Part shown: piece by piece, positions 4,150 to 32,787 of the stretch | Layout of the letters: every line of letters starts with the position of its first letter | How positions within the stretch are numbered: position 1 is the stretch's first letter | Program-made: the position numbers and the translations under genes | NCBI RefSeq assembly: GCF_020921035.1 | Contig: NC_063155.1 | Location: forward strand, 26,033,294-26,097,293 | Source of the DNA: Rhodamnia argentea | Lineage: Eukaryota > Streptophyta > Magnoliopsida > Myrtales > Myrtaceae | Direction: 5' to 3' | Length of the DNA stretch: 64,000 nt | Notes under the pieces: model-generated | The model's input: the letters and a program-made list of their open reading frames with translations, nothing else | Told to the model about the DNA's origin: nothing | Database searches by the model: none

Positions 4150-6150
4150 GGGTTGCTCCACTGCTTCTGGATGTTGAGTTGCTTCACAAATAACACACAC
4201 AGAGGACAGGAGAGGCAGAGACATTTTGCTGAACTGTTTGGTTTGGTAGGGACCAGACGGCTGCATGTGCTTTAGGACCGTACGAGCGGTTTCCAAACAG
4301 TGACTGCACGACATTTTCTCGGGTAAACGAGGCTCGAATCTGGTTTTTTTTTTTGGGAAGACAGCGTGTGGTTTTCGTGGCGTTTACTCTAGGGAAAGAA
4401 GAGGCCAAAAAGGCAAAAAGGAAAATGAAGGAGAAGAAGAAGAGATCCTCAAAATCTAGTCTTAGTAAAGGACGGACAGATGGCGGTGTTTCAGACGCCG
4501 TGCCCACATGCAATCGTTTTTGTTCTCATGCAGCGCCCGTTTTGCCGCACCTGCTCCCTTCCCCTCTCCTACTTTCTTGGATGCTCCTTCGTAGCGTCTT
4601 AAATGACACGTCGTCAAGCAAAGATTATCCTTCTTGATCAAGCCAGTTCCATAGAGTAAAACATTGACATAGACCCTCGTGGAGTTCCATTGCCATGCGC
4701 TAATCACACTGATCCATTTCATTAGTTGCTCGTTAACAGAGTGTTTTTCCCTCTTTTCATTACATGATTCTGGGCAAATAAAACGAGGATCGATCATTAC
4801 ATCTCGCAACCAAAGCTACGTACGCCCTTGGAAAGGAGGTTAGGTTAGGTGGGAGGTGCTCCAACTTTCGTTCGCTTCATTTAATGGGGTGGATTCTCTC
4901 GTTTAGAACCGAAGACCGACGCGATTCAACTTGGGGGTTTTGATGGAATCAACGTGGGGTTCATCTGCTCGAATGGAGACAACTCTCTTAGCCTCGATTA
5001 CCCTTTTCTAGGAGTAGCCTTTTTTTTTTTTTGGTCGGAATAGGAGTAGCTTCATTCCGGGCAAATTTATTAACCCTAGACACTCATTAGTTCACCGTTA
5101 GGTAAACGAGTGAATGATCATTCGAGTGGAGACCCTTAGCTCTCCCCTAGCCTTGATTCCCTTTCTAGGAGGAGCTTCGTTCCACCCTTAACTCGGTTCA
5201 ATGCCAAATCCTGCATTAATAGCTCAAATTTCAAGCTCAGTTTACTCAGTCAGTCTTTTGTTCTTATGCTCCAAGCTGATTGACAGCTCAGCTCTCTTGT
5301 AGAAGATTATTCGGACTAAGGGTGTGTTTGTCCGAACGAATTATTCTTTTTCCGCGAATTAGTTTTCCAAGGACTTTCACGCGTTTAATTCGCTGCAAAA
5401 TGATCCGTCCACGAAAAAATCATTTTACGGTCGAAGAAAATGTGCATGCTTATACTTAGGAAAACAAATTCCTCAACCCGAAAGAGGGGGAAATCATATT
5501 CCTAGAAAAAATTCTCCTTCGTCGCGAAAATTTTTCTCGAAACAAGCACGCACGTCCAGAGAAGTCTAATCTCGGACTATCATCAGTAATTTTACAATCA
5601 ATAGGCACACTCTTAACCAATCAAGCCCCAGGGCGGTAATTCCACGAGAGCAATAATGAGCACATGATGCATAAATCAATGAGAAGTCCCCCTTCAAGTA
5701 TGACAGGCATGGATTTCCAAATTGGAGTCCAGCATTTCTCCTCTGTCTTTCGCTCATACGTGTCGTCTGATGTGGTGGGCCGGTTGGTGGTCATCACCTC
5801 CATAAAACAAAGCTGTGGCCCGTCGTTTTTGTCTACCTAGATGAGATCTGCTTGGACAACGAAATGTACAAATTCCATTCGGATAGTCTAAGCGAGATCA
5901 GAGGAGCCGGGATTTCCGGTGATTAGCATGTCAATCAATCGGGAACTAAAAAAGAATCCAGAAGCGTAACCTAAAATATTCTAGTTTGTGTAGTGGAGCA
6001 ACTAAAGTTTCTCATTTTCTTTGTTTATTAGTTTGCATGAAATTATCTTCATTTAATTCGTGACATTTGCCTCCATATTGCGATTCGATGAGGATGATCT
6101 GCAATGATAAGCATATATACAAGAAAAAGAACCCATTTTTTTTTTTTATA
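4150..6150. other. Spacer upstream of the expansin gene
   Basis: No gene recognised. Holds the expansin upstream region and, at about 5320-5560, a small foldback repeat: 'gtgtgtttgtccgaacgaatt' type sequence at the left and 'cgcgaaaatttttctcgaaacaagca' type sequence at the right, inverted with respect to each other. The wording resembles the common plant MITE ends that read 'gtttgttt...gcgaaaa'. I could not delimit it by a target duplication. Confidence 0.4.
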
Positions 6151-21912: not shown

Positions 21913-24900
21913 CTACTTGGTGGCAATTCCATAAATATGAGAGTTTATAAGGGTGGCGTTAGCTAAAAAAGCCGTGCCAAGCTCGACACTAGAGAATCCA
22001 GCCTCAGATATGTTCTTCCCTGTGTTTCTGGTAAGGTGACACCCATCAGCAACTGCCTGCTGCAAGGGATCGAGGATACTTTGGAGGAACTTGAGGATTG
22101 TTCCATCTGAATTATCAAAATTTGAACAACAAATATCAACCCTAAAGCATAACCAAGTATCGAAAGTGATGTCAACTCAAACTTCTTGCTTTTCATGCAA
22201 CAACTGTTTAGAAGTTTTCTGGGCTCGTACCTTTTGCAGCCACATGCTCCACAAAGATGTAAGAACCACCTGGCTTAAGCACCCTCTTCACTTCTAAAGA
22301 GATTAAAGTAAAGATCACGCTTTGAAAAGGACCAAACGGCCTCAACCCGCAAAGGAGTATAATTCTCCAAAATAAACAATGTTACATAACTCACATGCCA
22401 AGTTTTCTAGCTGCTATCGGAATAATGACTCCTTGCTTGACTTTGCATACCGTTGAGGAAGTCGAAAGAGAGGCTCAACACCTCAGATTCACACTATGGA
22501 AGTGCAGAAGTAGACAGATGGTAAACAAGGGGATCATGCCCTTTGCAGAGTAATTACCTTTCAGCGTCAGGTCAACATCACTGACGGAGCACAAGACGAG
22601 TGTTCCAACAACTGCTTCAACAGATGCATCCCTTAGTGGTATAGCCTCACCAACCTGGAGGACATCAACCAAAGAGTTTCTGATCTAAGAAAAAGGCATG
22701 ATAGAGATTGGTAGTTGGCAGACAGAGGTCATATCTGGCATATATAATCCTTGGGTATTCAGATTGACTAAGCCCAATAAAGCTAGCCATGGCCATTTTC
22801 CCCCTCTTGATCCATCCCCACACCAGATGTAGTATCTTGCCAACTAAGTTCTTTAAGGTTTGGATGATCTTCTTTGCAAGTTGACAAATTACTAGGCCAT
22901 TAAGGTTATTGGTAGCATCTTGAAGACAAGAAAAAATTCACCTTCTACTTGAGAAAGCATCTTCATTCTGTATGTTCGAGCAAAATTCACTGCACATAAG
23001 TTAGAAGAAACACTACAGAATAATCAACAGCCTATGCATTTTCAATTATTCCTGGACAAAACCTTCTTCTTTGTTTTTGGACAATTATCACGAAGAATCT
23101 TCTTGTTCAAGTTTATATGATCTAGTTGACCATGGATCACTCAGGCACAATTATCTCCTCTGGGTATACCAATTCCAATAACCAACTCTTCAAAAGTGCA
23201 CAAATTCAAAAATAAAAAAACAACAAAAAAGGAAATCAAATATCAGCAACTAGTATTGCCATGTTCATGCATTCATACTGCTTGGAGAAATTTGAAGTTG
23301 GGAGATGGTAGTCCAGCTGCTGCTGCTGCTGCCCGAGAATATCTTTCCATTGTTCTCTTTGGGTCTATCCCGACAACATGGACATTGTTGTCATTGGCAT
23401 AATACTTGAGATTAGGACCGGTTCCTATACCGATCTCCAAAACTTCCTTGACTTTTCCCTTCAATTTGCTGAATAGCTGGGACTTATACCCTGCAATCTT
23501 GCAAAGTAACCGAATGCAACCGCAGATAATTATGTATGAACTCGAGACACAAATCTTTTTTCGAAGGAGACAAAGATTAAGACAACTCCGGTAATCTGAA
23601 AAGGGAGACTAACCTCGGCCTCATAAGCTTCCATATCCTTATCAAGGACCACAGCTTGCAACTCCTCATACCACTGAGGTCTAGGAGCGTGATATTTATC
23701 CAAAATTGCCTATGTGCAGATAATGCAAGTTAAATGTCACATCCCCATATCTAACACTCTCCGTGAACTCATTGGACATGAAAAATGGTTGGAATAAAGT
23801 CATAGCCGGCCACATGAGAAGGCGGCCTATTTGTCCAATAAACAAACTGTGTACCTATGGCTCATCTATGCATGGGTTGACTCACTCTTACATGGGAAGA
23901 CATCATAAGCTCCAACTAAAGCATCGACATTGATCATATTCAAAGGGTGAACGAGGAGTCATAACATTAAAGCGAGAAAACCTACCTTTGGTATCACACT
24001 GATAAATACGCAGATCGCTCGCATTCCAAACAGAATGAAATGAATGCCCAAAATCTAGCCATCCCAGTTCAGCAATGACCGAACTTAAATAAGGACAATA
24101 TGTTAACCACTAGGGGTGATCGGTTCTCGATCCGGTCCGGTTCCCCTCAAGAACCGAGAACCGGACCGGTGGTTCCGGTTCTCAATTTTCCGGAACCGGG
24201 AACCGGACCACCGGTCCGGTCCGGTTCCCAGGCGGTTCCATTGGATTGAACACATGCCAAAAAAAAAAATTTGTACCATTCCCGGACGGTCCCAATCTAG
24301 AAAATATAGAGACTGGACATTAAAAAATTTCAAGTTCATTTCCTAAAATGGGTCTTTCAAGGCAAAGTTGAGAACTTTTTGCAAGATTGTTTCCAAAATG
24401 CATATGGTATTCAAGCAAAAACGATCTCCCTTTAGGTCAAAAACGGCCCGGGAATCGACTGAGGCAAGATCAAGATAAGGATTTTGTTTGGGGACTAAGA
24501 AGGCAAGATCGAGAAAACTCCATGCGCATGGAGTTTTCTTGATAAAAAAAAAAAAAATCGATCAATCCGGTTCAGGCGGTCCGGTCCCCGCGGACCCTAG
24601 AACCGGGAACCGGACCACCGGTCCCGGTCCGGTCCGGGCAGTCCGATTTGCTCACCCCTATTAACCACAACTTGCGGTCAAGGTCTTTTATCCAATTCGA
24701 GACATTATCATTGACCAAATCACTTTCCTGAATGGAACTGTTAGAGAGTAAGTTCCCACGACGGATTCTTGAATTTTGTTCACGCGGCTGGATCAGTTTC
24801 ACTCGAAGAGCAACGGTACAGAATATGAAGTCGTGGTTTGCATTTACTGCGTTATTTACCATCTGATTTCACCGACTTTCCTTCAACATTTCATGGCTTC

Positions 24901-25441: not shown

Positions 25442-25696
25442 GTGTCTGGGGGAAGGCAGGATTAACATTCCACTAACAAGCCATGAAGAGGAGAAAATAT
25501 TGGGTAGTACGGGACTCCGTGTCACTGTGAGCTAGTTCAATCAGTGGAAGACACGTGGAAAAAGTGCCGTCCATCGGTCCCACTTTCTTTCTCTCTTTCG
25601 TGTTGCATAGATGGGCCTCTCCACGTCATCACGGAAAGACCCATTCAATGGACGACACGTGGTGCGCTAATTCCACCTTTCCTCCTCCCTCTGATT

Positions 25697-25734
<38 letters not shown>

Positions 25735-25910
25735 GCGTCTTCTCCCTCTCTCCCTCCTTTTGAAACTCTCACGACACACACTCCTCTCTCTCTCTCTCCT
25801 CTGTCTCGCAAAATCGAACGACGACCACCACTCGCCGCCGCAGAGAAAGATGTTCGCGTCCGTGCAGTCGTGGCTCTAGCAGGACGGGAGAGAAAACAAC
25901 AAAGAGAAAG
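25442..25910. promoter_or_regulatory. Shared upstream region with (TC)n tract
   Basis: Only about 470 bases separate the methyltransferase start (leftward) from the epimerase relic (rightward), so this probably contains two divergent promoters. It includes a long perfect TC run (about 25700-25732) and further TCTC clusters to about 25805, typical of plant leaders and core promoters. I could not assign a TATA box for either side. Confidence 0.45.
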
Positions 25911-26732
25911 ATGTCAGCTGCTTCGCTTTGCTCTTCCACGTTATAGTCTCAGATCAGTGGGCTCGTAGGAGGTCTCTTCGTCGACCGAGCAATGTCGCTT
26001 TCACCAGGGACTGCCTCCTCCTCCTCCTTAGTCTTGGCATTGAAGTTATGGCTGCTTTTGTCGGTGGAGCTAAAGTTTGGAAAGGTGTTCTTTGAGAGCG
26101 TAACGTTCGTTTGGAATTCGAGATTGTCTAGTGCTTAAATCTGTGTGGAAATAGTATAACCTTAGGGAAGTTGTTTCGACGGGTTTCGATGTAGACATTC
26201 TGGTTGGAACTAAGCGAGTAACGAAGTGTTTAGCAATTCGATCGAGTGTGGTTCAGGAAACGAGGTAAAGTAAATAGAATCAGTTCAATTTCCTTTTCTT
26301 TTCCGGCAGTGTAGTAAGAGTGTGACGTTGTTTGCCGTGTGAAGAAATTTCTCAGTAACTATCTTGAGGATTTTAGGCTAAGATTTCCTTTTGATGACTT
26401 GGATTGAAGTTCAGGCGTTATGTATTTGTGAATATGCAAAGCTGAATTATAATACTGAAGGTCCATCTGTATTTGTAGTGATTGATTGACCGTTATTTTG
26501 GCCAATAACTCAAAGTAGAAGTTTTCTGCGAGTTTCTCTTCCTCTAGCTTCGTGATAGTACTAGTGATAACTGCGCCAATCCTCTGTACATCATCTGCCC
26601 TTGCATTACTACAAATGCAGTCTTTTTACTGAAATTTGGTTTCTGTTATCTAGATTTGAAGTCTGGGAGCTAAAGCTGGAGTTATCCTGAACCCCCATAC
26701 CCCACTAAGTGCTATAGAATATGTTCTTGATG
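25911..26732 (+). pseudogene. RPE: Broken chloroplast ribulose-phosphate 3-epimerase
   Basis: Two homologous exons remain. At 25911 an ATG opens MSAASLCSST, then a TAG sits where relatives have Gln, then SQISGLVGGL follows. This matches the plastid transit peptide of plant RPE as I recall it (relatives read STLLQSQISG). After a frame change, PSNVAFTR is readable near 26000, as in the mature-protein border. At 26654-26732, between a TCTAG acceptor and a GTGAGT donor, is [24 protein letters not shown], a core RPE segment; here a TGA replaces the expected Lys codon before SLGAK. The exons between these two are missing, and the C-terminal catalytic part was not found. The copy is intron-bearing, so it is a decayed segmental duplicate, not a retrocopy. 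Confidence 0.75.
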
Positions 26733-27120
26733 GTGAGTTTACTGTTTGTTCACTTTGGTCGTGAATTTTCCTTTTTTTTTGCACACTATGTTCTTATTAT
26801 CTCTTTCCACTAAGTCCTGTTTGGAAAATTTTGTGGTTTCCATAGCTCAGCACAACATAATGTGCATTTGGAGATGCAACAAATAGATTGCTATACCTGA
26901 GTTTCATAACAAATTTGTTTAGTCATGATTCATGTTCTGGGTCTGGAACGATGTACTGTTTCTGTAGTTTTCTGCATGTTGCATCCTTTATGCCTTTGTA
27001 TTGTGTTCTCGAATACTCTATCCTAGTTTATAAGTTGGATAACTCTCTAACCTTATGCTTGGTTGTACAGCTTCTCTAGTAACAAAGGCTTGCGCGTAAC
27101 TTCTTTGCCTGCATGTCCTC

Positions 27121-27282
27121 TATTTTGGGAAAATGGTGGCTTGTCCACTGGTGATAAAATTGCCATAGCCATAGCATGTCTTGTTGTGTTCTCTGTGCTG
27201 CTTTTGGTGCTATACATATGCTGCATAAGAAGGGGGTGGAAGGATTATGACTTTGCTCTACCTCATGAATTGATGTGTAAGT
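27121..27282 (+). CDS. Possible exon of a small single-pass membrane protein
   Basis: An open segment encodes GLSTGDKIAIAIACLVVF, then SVLLLVLYICCIRRGWKDYD, then FALPHELM. This is one hydrophobic span of about 20 residues followed by a basic, Trp-containing cytosolic-looking tail, ending at a plausible donor (TGTGTAAGTTG). I do not recognise the family and could not connect it to a start codon or next exon. It could be part of a leader of the downstream gene, a separate small gene, or chance. Confidence 0.25.
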
Positions 27283-28082
27283 TGATGTTTGAAACCACTG
27301 TTTTATTATCTTACATATATTTTCTCTTTCGCACACTATGTTCTGCATGTTCAAGCTAACCATTTTCTGAGGAGAGAAAGCTGGATCTGCTTGATATGCC
27401 TAACTGTCTTATTAAACCAATTTATCTCTTCGCTTTGCACACTGTGCATGATACTCCAAATATGCTGAGAGACATACAATGGCTGCAGCTTCTTGCTTAG
27501 CATTTCTGATTGTGTTTATCAAATTATATGCATTTTTCTGAGGATGTCAGAACTTCTATTTTTCAGAATCACTATAAAGTGCGGATCTTAATTCTTCCAG
27601 GCTCAGATTGAAATGTTGTCTTACGGATGGAGATGGGTTATTTGAGTTTTATAACAGCAATGCCAAACTCTTTGCATGCGTTAATTTCTGAAATTTAATG
27701 TTTGAAGATGGCAGTTATAAACTATAATTTTTCCCACACCTTTCTCATCGTCAAAGGAAGCTTGCTTCTTATGAGCTTGTTCTGTTGTTTGTCTTTGCTG
27801 ATTATATCATGCTAATGAATTTGAGGATTGTGTCTCCTACGGGGATGAATTATACTCAATGCAGGGGTGGAGACAGCTTTGGCCAACTTATTGTTTGCTC
27901 CTTAGCTTTTCGACATTTTTCTTTCTCATATTGGGCAAGAAGGTTGGTCCTCTGTTGCACTTGATCGCTGGTGCTGCATTGCTCTGTCTCGTGGAGTCTC
28001 TCCCTGATTCGCTTGCAAAAACTCAGGCTGACAAAGGTTCACTTGCGATTAGTTAGTTAATTCGCACATTCAAGGTTATCCG

Positions 28083-30963
28083 ATGGCTGAATCAGAGGTA
28101 ATCATATACTCATACTATGTGAAAGATATTTTCTTTCTCAAGAAATGGACGGGATATTATTTTGCTTGTAAAAGCACTTTGTTAAATATTTTTTGTTCTT
28201 GCAGCATGAATCTGCCCAACGTGATTGTCAAATTTTTTTGCACAGTGAAAGATCAAACTATTTAAGTGGGGGAGATTGTCAAAGGGTTCTGAATCATTTT
28301 CATTGCGTGCAAATGGAAAATCCAATGTTTTTCTATGCTATACAGGTAGATCAAGATTGTAGAGTGACAAATCTATTTTGGAGAGATAGTTTGTCCAAAT
28401 TTGTCTATGATTGCTTCGGTGATGTGATGGTTTTTGATACCACATATCGTACTAGCAAGTATAACATGATATGCGCACCTTTTGTTGGGGTTAATCACCA
28501 TGGGAGGAGTACTTTGTTTGGCTATGCATTTTTGTTGGATGAGACTGCGAATTCATTTACTTGGTTATTTGAGGTGTTTTTGAAGCCTATGAGAAATAAG
28601 GCTCCAAAAACCATTTTCAGTGATCAAGACCAAGCTATGGCAAAAGCCATTCGAAAGGTTTTTCCGAATGCTCAACACCGCTTATGCACTTGGCACATTG
28701 GGAAAAATGCCAATCAAAACATTCCACATCTTTACAATAAGCAGGGGTTTAAGGATAAATATTTCTCAAAACTTATGTATAGATGCAAATCAGAGGATGA
28801 ATTTGAATCTACATGGAGGAAAATGGAAGAGGAGTGGGGCACTAAGAATAACGGTTGGCTACGGAGGTTATACGACCTAAGACATAAATGGAGTTCGGCT
28901 TTTGGTCGTGATATTTTTTCTTGTGGTATAAGATCAATTCAAAGGAGCAAGAGCACTAACAATGTCTTCCAACAATTGTCGACTAAGATTTTAACCCTTG
29001 TAGAATTTGTCTATCACTATGAAGAACTGCTAAAACAAATGAGAGAAATTAAAGTTCAAAATGATTATAATTCTCGTGGGAAACCCAAATTACGGATTTT
29101 GCACAATATGATATTAACGCATGCCACTTCGGTGTATACTCGTGCCATTTTTAAAAAGTTTAATGAAGAATTTTTTCAAAGTACCGCAAAACAGATTTCG
29201 GGTGCTGCTTTCCGTGGGTTGGTTTGTGAATACACTCTCAAGTGTATGGGGATTCAAGGTGAACATGTTGTCAGATTTAACGCTGCGGATTTTTCAGTTT
29301 CTTGTGATTGCACATTATTTGAATCAAAAGGGTGGTTGTGTCGCCATGCTTTGCACGTGTTGAATATGAACATATCGGTTTCGGTCATTCCATCTTTCCG
29401 TATTTTGAAAAGATGGACTAAGGGTGCGAAGCAAGGGAATGTGAATGATGAATTTCATCAAATGTCACCGGGTCGATCTACATTTGATCGATTTTCCACG
29501 TCAATGCGAATAGCTTTTGAAGTGATGAGTTTGGGAGCCGAAGATAGAAATACTATGAGAATAGTGAAGAAGAATTTGGATGCGACGGTAGCTGAAATTT
29601 CATCATATAAATCAAGTGTGGTTGTGACGGATGATGCTAGTGATGATGATAGTAATGAGACTTCTTTGTGTGAGATGTCGATATTGGAACCCCTTCAAAG
29701 GAAAGGGAAAGGAACAAGCTATGGAAGGCTTAAAAGCTTGAGTGAGAAAAAGAAGAAAAAATCTAAGAAAGTAATACCTCCAGTGCACATAGAAAGTCAA
29801 GGTGAGTGAGAGATAGTTTTAGTTAACATGTTTAGTTGAATTTTATACTTGTGCTACATGATGCCTGTCAACATATTTACTATTTTGCTATGGAGAGTTT
29901 GTTGTCCAAGCAACACATAATGAAACTCATTTACCAAATTATTCAAGAAATTCAAATCAGATTCGTAATGCCTTTTGTCCTAGCAACAATGGTGATCCTA
30001 GAGTCTATCCAAATTTCCATAATCATGTACGTCCCTCTAAGTTCAACATTTGTATTTCGATTCCGCTAATTGGGTCAATTTTTTTAATATAGATGCAATC
30101 ACCGTATATCATGCTGCCAAGGATTATGAATGGATTTTTCCCAATCACTAGTCGGGTATTTAGAAGTCTGGGTTCTTGTTCTAATGTTTGACTGAGTTTT
30201 GCTACTATTCTAATGTTTATTATTAATGGTTTCTCGTTAATAGATGTTGGAGTAGCATGACCATAGAAGCATTTTGTTACATTCTACTAATGAGGTCGTC
30301 TTTTTTTTTTGTTAGATGCGACCACCATACCTCATGCTGCCGGGGATTATGAATGGATTTCACCCATACATTAGTCGGGTATTTATTGTGAGATCATTTT
30401 AGATCACGGTATTGTTTGGCTGAATTGTCACTATTCTGATGTTTATAGTATGATTTCTCGTTTATAGATGTTGGAGTCGCATAACCATGGAAGCATTTTG
30501 TTACATTCTACTATGAGGTAATCTTTTTTTTTTTTTTTTAAGATGCAACCACCATACATCATGCTGCCAGGGATTATGAATGGATTTTGCCCATTAACTA
30601 GTCAGGTATTTATTGTGAATATCATTTTAGATCGCAGTATTGTTTCAATTATTGTAAACTATTCTAATGTTTATTGGTAATGGTTTCATGTCAATAGATG
30701 TTGGAGGACCAGAATAGATCCCATGGAAGCATTTTGAGTCAGGTATAACTTGCCTTACTTGGTGAACCGAGATTATTTGAGATAATTTTAATGCAGGTAC
30801 ATTGTGTAGTAAGCTGTTTTTTTTTTTTTGTAAATAAATTATTAATTCCTTTGTACATGAGTCATCAAACTCTTTTCAGGATCCTCGGATGCATGAATTG
30901 AACAATCCCGAATGCATAGACAATGCACGGTCGCACCATAATTTGTCAGAAGGCAGAAGATAG
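28083..30963 (+). CDS. FAR1-related sequence (FRS) protein lacking the FAR1 DNA-binding domain
   Basis: Domesticated Mutator-like transposase of the FHY3/FAR1 family; members act as nuclear transcription regulators. Exons: 28083-28097, 28205-29801, 29911-30026, then short exons at 30543-30605 and 30698-30742, and a last exon 30880-30963. Phases agree, giving about 639 residues. The large exon shows the MULE domain (VMVFDTTYRT, IFSDQDQAMAKAI, HRLCTWHIGKNAN) and a SWIM zinc finger, CDCTLFESKGWLCRH. A Lys-rich tail (KKKKKSKK) resembles a nuclear signal. Family proteins usually have an N-terminal WRKY-GCM1-like FAR1 domain; here only about 30 residues precede the MULE domain, and no upstream open segment encodes it. 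Either the gene is truncated or a distal exon was missed. The start ATGGCTGAATCAGAG is short but splices perfectly. Two degenerate extra copies of the short exon pair lie at 30093-30517. Confidence 0.85.
30093..30742 (+). repeat. Triplicated exon pair near the 3' end of the FRS gene
   Basis: Three tandem units of about 223-230 bp, each with exon A (63 nt) and exon B (45-51 nt). Exon A copies: 30093-30155, 30316-30378, 30543-30605, encoding variants of MQPPYIMLPGIMNGF, all phase 0 with GTATTT donors. Exon B copies: 30244-30294 (in-frame TAG after three codons), 30468-30517 (50 nt, breaks the frame) and 30698-30742 (45 nt, intact, MLEDQNRSHGSILSQ). The second and third A exons are preceded by T runs of 10-15 bases. 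Only the third B exon can be used without ending the protein early. Confidence 0.8.
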
Positions 30964-32787
30964 CAGCACTGCCCTTGCTTTTTGTGCTTGTTAGAATTAT
31001 CGTCTTCAGTGCTATTTGGGAAGTTTGATTGTGGAGTGAGAATGAAGAAGGTCGATCTTCCGTGCTTAGTTCGGAGGCGTTGGACTTGGTGAAGTTAAAG
31101 CAAGCGACATTGTTGAACTAGTGTACTCTATTCTTACCATACGATGGCTACAGCTTCTTGCTTAGCATTTATATGTTAGAACCGAAACTTACAGCGTGCA
31201 CGAGGTTTTCCGAAGGTGACCATGCATTAATTGATATAGGTGCCAGAAAAGAGGAAATCCTTTAGTTGAATTTTACTTGAACGATGATCTTTATTATTCA
31301 ACCTGCAACATAATGTACACTCCGTGTCGCAGCACTATTTTCGAGGTGGATGATCTGCGAGGCTTATAAGGTTGACAGCACTGGGTAGAATTGACCAGGA
31401 TGTATCAGCATCTTCGACGGCATGAGCTTGAGATATTCCGCTGCCTCTGCAATCTTTCTGCGGATGAAAAGAAGAGATGTGGACGAGTTAAAGCGAGTGC
31501 TTATTGAAAATCTTAGATAGCCAATCCTGAGCACAGACAAAAAAATTCACAGTGAGTTGTCTTTACTTGCCATATTTAACACCGAGTCAACAAATCATGC
31601 ATGTGATCTGTGAGTTGAGCCAATATGCGTTAACAGAAATAATGATCCGGTTCACTTTAGCTACAGAAATGTTTGCAGCCATGTTTAATACTAGGGTGCC
31701 CGGCATCCTTCCCTTGATAGACCAGAATGAATAAAAAATCCTTCTTTTTCGGTTAAAGCATTTGAACTTTGTGTTGGTAACTACTCTCCTGGCAGGTTCA
31801 AGCATCAATAGGCATGCCTTGTCACTTACTTTCCCCCTTTCCATCATTTTAAATGCGCTAGGGTCCCCAAAGGATAACACGCACTTCAGGGACTCGGGGA
31901 GGCAAATGAATGGACTTGGAGCATCCAGCAAATTTCAACTACTGGGAAACTTTAGTTTGGTTCTCCTGGGATGTCTTTGGAATGTCTCAGGTAAAATTGC
32001 ATACTTCCAGAATTTGAAGTCTCGTGAATTGCTAACGAATTAGCACTGGATAATTACACCCAAAAGATCTTTAAGAAAACAACCTGAGATGTCCCTTTGA
32101 TTCAGTTGGTGTAAACACTGACCGTCCTACGTGGCACGGCCAGCACTAATGTTGACAACTTTTGAAAATATTTTAAAAGCTTTTAATTTTTTTTTTTTAT
32201 CTCTTCTCTCTCTTTTTTTCTTTACACTTTCTTTACTGTGGCCGGAGAGGATTGCGGCCCTCACTCGCGGCCGCAATTGTCTGCTTCATAGCTTGCCGCG
32301 TCATGTGGGATGACCGATATCCATATCAGCGATTTTTGACCAAAATTAGTCGGACAGAATAAATTGACACAAATTTGCATAATCGCAATATTAGGACCTT
32401 TTTTTTATGACTTATAATGATGCAAAAGGCAGGTGATGTACAGAGGATTGGGGGCAGTTATCACTAGTACGATCACGAAGATAGACGGAAGAGAAACTCG
32501 CAGAGAACTTCTCCTCTGAGTTATTGGCCAAAGTGATGGTCAGTCAATCACTTCATATTCTGTGGGTGCCGGCCTTCAAATGACACTGATTCAGCCATGT
32601 GAAGAAAATTCAAGACTAAAGGTGTACTGATATATGTCTTGCCTGCAAATACTACAGGAGACCGTTGCAAATACGTCTCTCCGGTTCATCGCACATCAAA
32701 GGGCTTATGGAGTTCAACTGCCTCCTGTTTGGTTCCCATTATGTCGACTACAAAAGGGAAATGAAACAACGGTTCGACCAAAATGAT
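30964..32787. other. Spacer between the FRS and endosulfine genes
   Basis: Holds the FRS 3' UTR and the downstream flank of the endosulfine gene. At 31138-31170 a 33-base word repeats (two mismatches) one at 27473-27505. At about 32045-32410 lies a degraded long-TIR MITE relative ('cgtcctacgtggcacggcc' and the inverted 'tcatgtgggatgaccgat', 'aattgacacaaatttgc'). At 32420-32555 is an inverted copy of 26476-26609. The minus-strand open frame 31587-31931 has no recognisable domain. Confidence 0.5.
32420..32555 (-). repeat. Inverted copy of epimerase-relic intron sequence
   Basis: The reverse complement of this segment aligns over about 135 bases with 26476-26609, including 'ctgcgagtttctcttcc', 'gtactagtgataactgc' and 'caatcctctgtacatca' with only scattered differences. 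Together the copies form a large inverted repeat of about 6 kb span that encloses the FRS gene. Confidence 0.8.

Follow-up and report, generated by a model that had tools for sequence, protein, structure and literature searches.

A three-unit exon array in an apparent copy of a Mutator-like transposase gene in Rhodamnia argentea

In the genome of Rhodamnia argentea, a gene described in an earlier note as FAR1-related carries a short exon three times in tandem close to its 3' end. The question raised by this locus is whether such an arrangement represents a splicing switch of one particular gene, or if it has its origin in some other process. The gene is located in the window, i.e., the whole stretch of 64,000 nucleotides that was analysed (G000:C6:26033294-26097293, contig NC_063155.1, from a genome of 346.7 Mb in 74 contigs). 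Positions given below are those of the window, and the features are on its plus strand unless indicated.

The tandem array and its exons

A single array was detected with TRF at 30079-30706, with a period of 227, 2.8 copies, 79% matches and a score of 741. This array, and a start-to-start spacing of 223-230 from one A, or one B, to the next, confirmed the three tandem units, each with a 63-nt exon A, that the note had described. Taken together, the repeat units of 228, 224 and 236 nt extend from 30049 to 30736, as defined by their junctions. Unit 1 (30049-30276, junction-defined) includes the tail of an intron, exon A1 and the 5' part of exon B; unit 2 (30277-30500) has a mosaic sequence, with one part like unit 1 and another like unit 3; and unit 3, the last one, corresponds to 30501-30736.

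The three A exons have 63 nt each, and were assigned from their frame and splice dinucleotides: A1 (30093-30155, MQSPYIMLPRIMNGFFPITSR), A2 (30316-30378, MRPPYLMLPGIMNGFHPYISR) and A3 (30543-30605, MQPPYIMLPGIMNGFCPLTSQ, with AAG as its acceptor). Gaps of 160 and 164 nt separate A1 from A2 and A2 from A3. A direct reading of the letters agrees with the previous description, in that all the A exons are open, in phase 0, with AG ahead and a GT donor behind. As judged from dinucleotides and frame, the duplication of a whole exon with both splice sites is true for A; from the comparison with relatives, B does not appear to share it. The letters also bear out that only the last B is intact: B1 (30244-30294, 51 nt) has an in-frame TAG as its fourth codon, B2 (30468-30517) has 50 nt and breaks the frame, and B3 (30698-30742, 45 nt), assigned by frame, is open and is the sole complete B exon. 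B1 and B2 themselves are probably not exon copies, because the duplicated unit appears to end within exon B. Approximately 33 nt of each belong to exon B, and the remainder was most likely copied from the intron preceding A; B1 would thus consist of 33 nt of exon B and 18 nt of duplicated intron, and B2 has the same kind of composition.

The gene and its transposon family

Upstream of the array, the gene model includes exon 1 (28083-28097), which encodes MAESE, has a GT donor and was placed by alignment to the first exon of relatives; exon 2 (28205-29801), in which Pfam recognises the MULE transposase core and SWIM; and exon 3 (29896-30026), with entry phase 1 and exit phase 0 according to its splice dinucleotides and reading frame. 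The terminal exon, including the stop codon, was placed by reading frame at 30880-30963. When exons 1-3 are joined to A1, A2, A3, B3 and the last exon, an open frame of 686 residues is obtained; the same joining gives 644 residues with one A and 623 without A, and an early stop appears in both of the B-including exon orders that were tried (B1 plus B2, and B2 alone). In Pfam searches, the core encoded in the window (533 residues) showed the MULE transposase domain (PF10551, E 7.9e-31) and SWIM (E 1e-4), and FAR1 was absent from this core at E values up to 0.1. The FAR1 domain (PF03101) is present in two relatives, L007 and L019, and in comparison with family members the window copy has lost roughly 0.5 kb near 28219, in exon 2, without disturbance of the frame, and this DNA-binding domain with it. 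The description of the gene as FAR1-related stands in so far as its MULE and SWIM domains are of the FAR1/MULE type; it appears to belong to a decayed transposon, and is probably not a host FRS gene. We consider it very probable that the array is the 3' end of a Mutator-like (MULE) transposase gene in an old, decayed transposon, from a family in which a doubled exon A is usual, and that the third unit was added later.

The location of the gene inside an old MULE is argued from its dispersed relatives, the termini of a relative on C1, an exact terminus in the window, an inverted pair, and a locus on C6. The array has at least 40 DNA match places in the 347-Mb genome, and 84 protein matches were obtained, some of which are pieces of the same copy and others distant FRS-like genes. 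Among the 19 protein matches that rank next to the window itself, 16 contain stops. Groups of family copies are approximately 89-97% alike over 2.4-4.6 kb and, among the matches listed, they are mostly on different chromosomes. Two 97% identical copies, L007 and L008, lie approximately 45 kb apart (C1, 20.70 and 20.66 Mb), probably as a local duplication.

The relative at C1:36258204-36265990 has terminal inverted repeats of 1.25 kb (93%), and a target duplication of 9-10 bp, CTGGTTGTT(C), at its flanks; this is the only copy in which such a duplication was searched for. At 25491, the window has an exact 15-base match to both termini of this relative, and to the C11 copy at its 5' terminus. 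From this match and the inverted pair described below, the 5' terminal inverted repeat region in the window, that begins GAGAAAATATTGGGT, would extend over 25491-26614, with its right edge as a minimum. When up to three mismatches were allowed, the terminus pattern was found 3 times in the window versus 3.27 expected by chance, and it is the exact match alone that seems telling; just inside the terminus, at 25480-25700 of the window, no other family match was found. The inverted pair is formed by 26471-26614 and 32412-32558 (86%), and its second arm, on the minus strand, would be the remnant of the 3' terminal inverted repeat. The terminal repeats of the window copy are then the exact 15-base 5' terminus and this inverted remnant of 147 nt. 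The locus at C6:8.115-8.120 Mb (L066) contains sequence like 31164-32109, followed by inverted pieces of 26779-25888. A 3' terminus and a target duplication of the window copy were not found in the window, nor was a terminus at C6:8.115-8.120 Mb; the C11 copy has a 3' repeat without the outer end. A search for inverted repeats inside the loci of 4.2-4.6 kb revealed a single weak pair of 25 nt because the element is larger, and the wider flanks of two copies helped in this respect.

Other sequences related to the element were also observed. An inverted pair at 24767-24831 and 32550-32615 (77%) has its left arm outside the proposed 5' end, and does not fit the element borders. The sequence at G000:C8:28590471-28591043 matches 27960-28085, 30163-30340 and 30960-31096 of the window in this order, and resembles a small internally deleted element. 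The upstream stretch 25767-28218 is common to C4:6423500-6433000 (L061), with approximately 77% identity over 25880-28218; by eye, one of the upstream pieces looks like a leucine-rich-repeat receptor-like gene. In this C4 sibling, positions 4302-5059 are self-inverted with transposase-like pieces inside.

As neither the FAR1 domain nor a recognisable 3' terminus has been retained, the transposon gene in the window is most likely dead, or close to it. The codon at 28949-28951, which we take to be that of the third acid (the catalytic glutamate) of the MULE acidic triad, is K in the window; over 31 copies, E is present in 18 and K in 5, window included, and 8 have no letters at this position. 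On the window branch of the core, 78 non-synonymous and 32 synonymous changes were counted, so that N/S is 0.81 of the neutral expectation; strong purifying selection on the protein was not detected on this branch, though the transposase frame (28208-29806) has no stops, versus approximately 4.9 expected under neutrality. Selection ratios from 21 of 30 copies, those with less than 1,000 aligned bases being left out, range from 0.29 to 1.41. This mixed signal could reflect weak constraint or a recently dead copy.

The absence of stops in the core frame would also suit a domesticated FRS-like host gene without its DNA-binding domain, in which alternative inclusion of A1 to A3 tunes the length of the tail. 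In favour of such a gene it can be mentioned that the A combinations tried preserve the frame, and that FRS9 from Arabidopsis also has no FAR1 domain (PMC6000157). Nevertheless, the N/S of the terminal branch, the transposon terminus and inverted-repeat remnant at the flanks of the gene, and the dispersion of its relatives, with stops in most of the best ones, make a host gene unlikely. A combined possibility, in which the plant adopted a MULE-derived protein without DNA-binding domain and varies its tail, from one to three 21-residue repeats, by splicing of tandem exons born in the transposon, is in our opinion very improbable. We therefore favour a decayed MULE copy.

Origin of the repeated units

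That the arrangement is peculiar to this gene is not supported by the family, where 30 of 42 copies have a doubled exon A. These 42 copies are 39 of the DNA places of the array (one short match was left out) plus 3 from the protein search, and an A exon was called with at least 45 of 63 identities within a stretch of 2-4.6 kb per copy. Three A exons were counted in one copy (the window only), two in 30, one in 5, and none was detected in 6, where the classes with one and none may include decayed A exons or A exons beyond the stretch searched. By eye, copy C4e has a degenerate A-like stretch, and in copy C1d a B1 tail lies ahead of its single A. Given that A exons may have decayed or lie outside the stretch searched, and given the B1 tail of C1d, the proposal of a single A-B unit as the starting state is weak.

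The duplicated unit most likely ends inside exon B, and B1 and B2 would each be an incomplete B that runs on into copied sequence of the intron preceding A. This junction was derived from the relatives, as the window alone did not discriminate: the tails of B1 and B2 in the window, aligned after 'GCATTTTG', are about equally similar to the sequence after B3 and to the intron before A1 (31/40 versus 32/40, and 32/39 versus 30/38, with shared exon letters included in the first counts). When the B1 tail of the window was compared with the intron that precedes the first A in 31 copies, the shuffle fraction was <0.05 in 21, which share ancestry and are not independent tests; it did not fall below this value in 10, including the window, whose own intron gave 0.11. 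The B1 tail can be aligned behind the B1 remnant in the remaining copies too, weakly in several of them. The sister group of the window (C1c, C11a, C4b, C3a and C8a; support 1.000) shows the TAG of B1 in 5/5, and AT instead of GT behind the B1 tail also in 5/5. Outside this group, GT is found behind the B1 tail in 17 of 25 copies, and we attribute it to the intron sequence that was copied. On these grounds, the junction in exon B is most likely older than the subfamilies. The relationships among the A exons are less simple, since A1 of the window has a mean identity of 52.3/63 to the last A of the family versus 48.0/63 to the first A, and A2 and A3 are likewise closer to the last A; therefore, similarity among the A exons does not follow their position, which counts against a simple positional history.

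The middle unit resembles unit 3 to the left of a breakpoint at 30412-30418 (27/32 informative sites) and unit 1 to its right (12/15), and the best split fits 39 of the 47 informative sites (permutation p 0.0002). A mosaic of this kind is expected from unequal crossing-over, although gene conversion could give the same result, and the third unit probably arose from later local recombination. From these observations, it is proposed that in an ancestor of the family a segment beginning in the intron before A and ending midway through exon B would have been duplicated in tandem, to give A-(partial B)-A-B, as supported by the junction in the relatives; subsequently, in the window lineage, unequal recombination between both units would have produced the third, middle unit, as supported by its mosaic sequence. 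A transposon family can thus carry and transmit a partial exon duplication, to which further recombination adds a copy.

It is extremely improbable that the array is an assembly error, i.e., a falsely expanded repeat: two-A tails are present in 30 other copies, and a mis-joined copy is unlikely because 14-17% of the aligned positions are different between units.

Splicing of the array and comparison with known systems

By default, splicing would pass over the partial B pieces and connect one, two or three A exons to B3; the resulting tail would have one to three repeats of 21 residues, and inclusion of one, two or three A copies appears possible in frame. Across 31 copies, AG, GT and an open frame are kept by 27, 28 and 24 of the first A exons, and by 24, 29 and 27 of the last A exons, respectively. 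Fitch changes were counted in 30 of the 31 copies with at least two A exons (one was dropped due to low coverage); those at third positions were 47/143 for the first A and 54/128 for the last A (p 0.039 for the last A; difference p 0.13), and on internal branches only, 19/44 (p 0.20) and 22/41 (p 0.008), respectively (difference p 0.39). That the first A is non-coding is not claimed, given that the codon-position bias is clear for the last A only and the difference is not significant. Since the splice sites and frame of the first A exons are kept much like those of the last A, and taking into account this lack of a significant difference, the additional A exons may indeed be coding, and as far as the sequence indicates it is quite possible that they are used by active elements.

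A different outcome would be mutually exclusive splicing of the extra A exons, with one being picked at a time. The presence of three similar A exons of equal length and phase, each with its own splice dinucleotides, is compatible with this mode of splicing; however, the gaps of 160 and 164 nt leave room for joining, the frame does not force the exclusion of any A because its length is a multiple of three, and a tail with two A exons is usual in the family, so this is the least credible of the explanations considered. Regulated choice among the A exons likewise finds no support in the sequences analysed here. Instead of a splicing switch, the array seems to represent the usual course of transposon evolution, and it recommends caution, since tandem exons observed in a single gene may be characteristic of a whole transposon family.

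Among the articles listed on FAR1/FRS, MULEs, and tandem or mutually exclusive exons, no report of this exon array was found. FRS genes derive from MULE transposases, and target duplications of 9 bp together with long inverted repeats are typical of MULEs in plants (PMC2528002, PMC3310237). As in MULEs of the Jittery/FAR1 lineage, a name taken here from papers and not from a tree, the window has MULE transposase and SWIM, and its relatives have FAR1, long inverted repeats and a 9-10-bp duplication; in contrast, the window copy has no FAR1 domain or recognisable 3' terminus, and its tail contains a tandem-duplicated exon. The relatives of the window copy share their domain order with FRS host transcription factors, of which FRS9 is also devoid of the DNA-binding domain (PMC6000157), whereas the window gene is multicopy, has transposon repeat remnants at its flanks and appears weakly constrained. 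A possible similarity to Pack-MULEs lies upstream of the transposase, where pieces of 25840-28050 match other loci on C5, C7, C1 and C6 at 72-89%, and this stretch could possibly be a Pack-MULE capture. Finally, tandem exon duplication is a known process, mutually exclusive exons included, in which an in-phase exon is copied in tandem by local duplication, as occurs here; the difference is that the unit in the window appears to cut exon B, leaving A as the sole complete duplicated exon.
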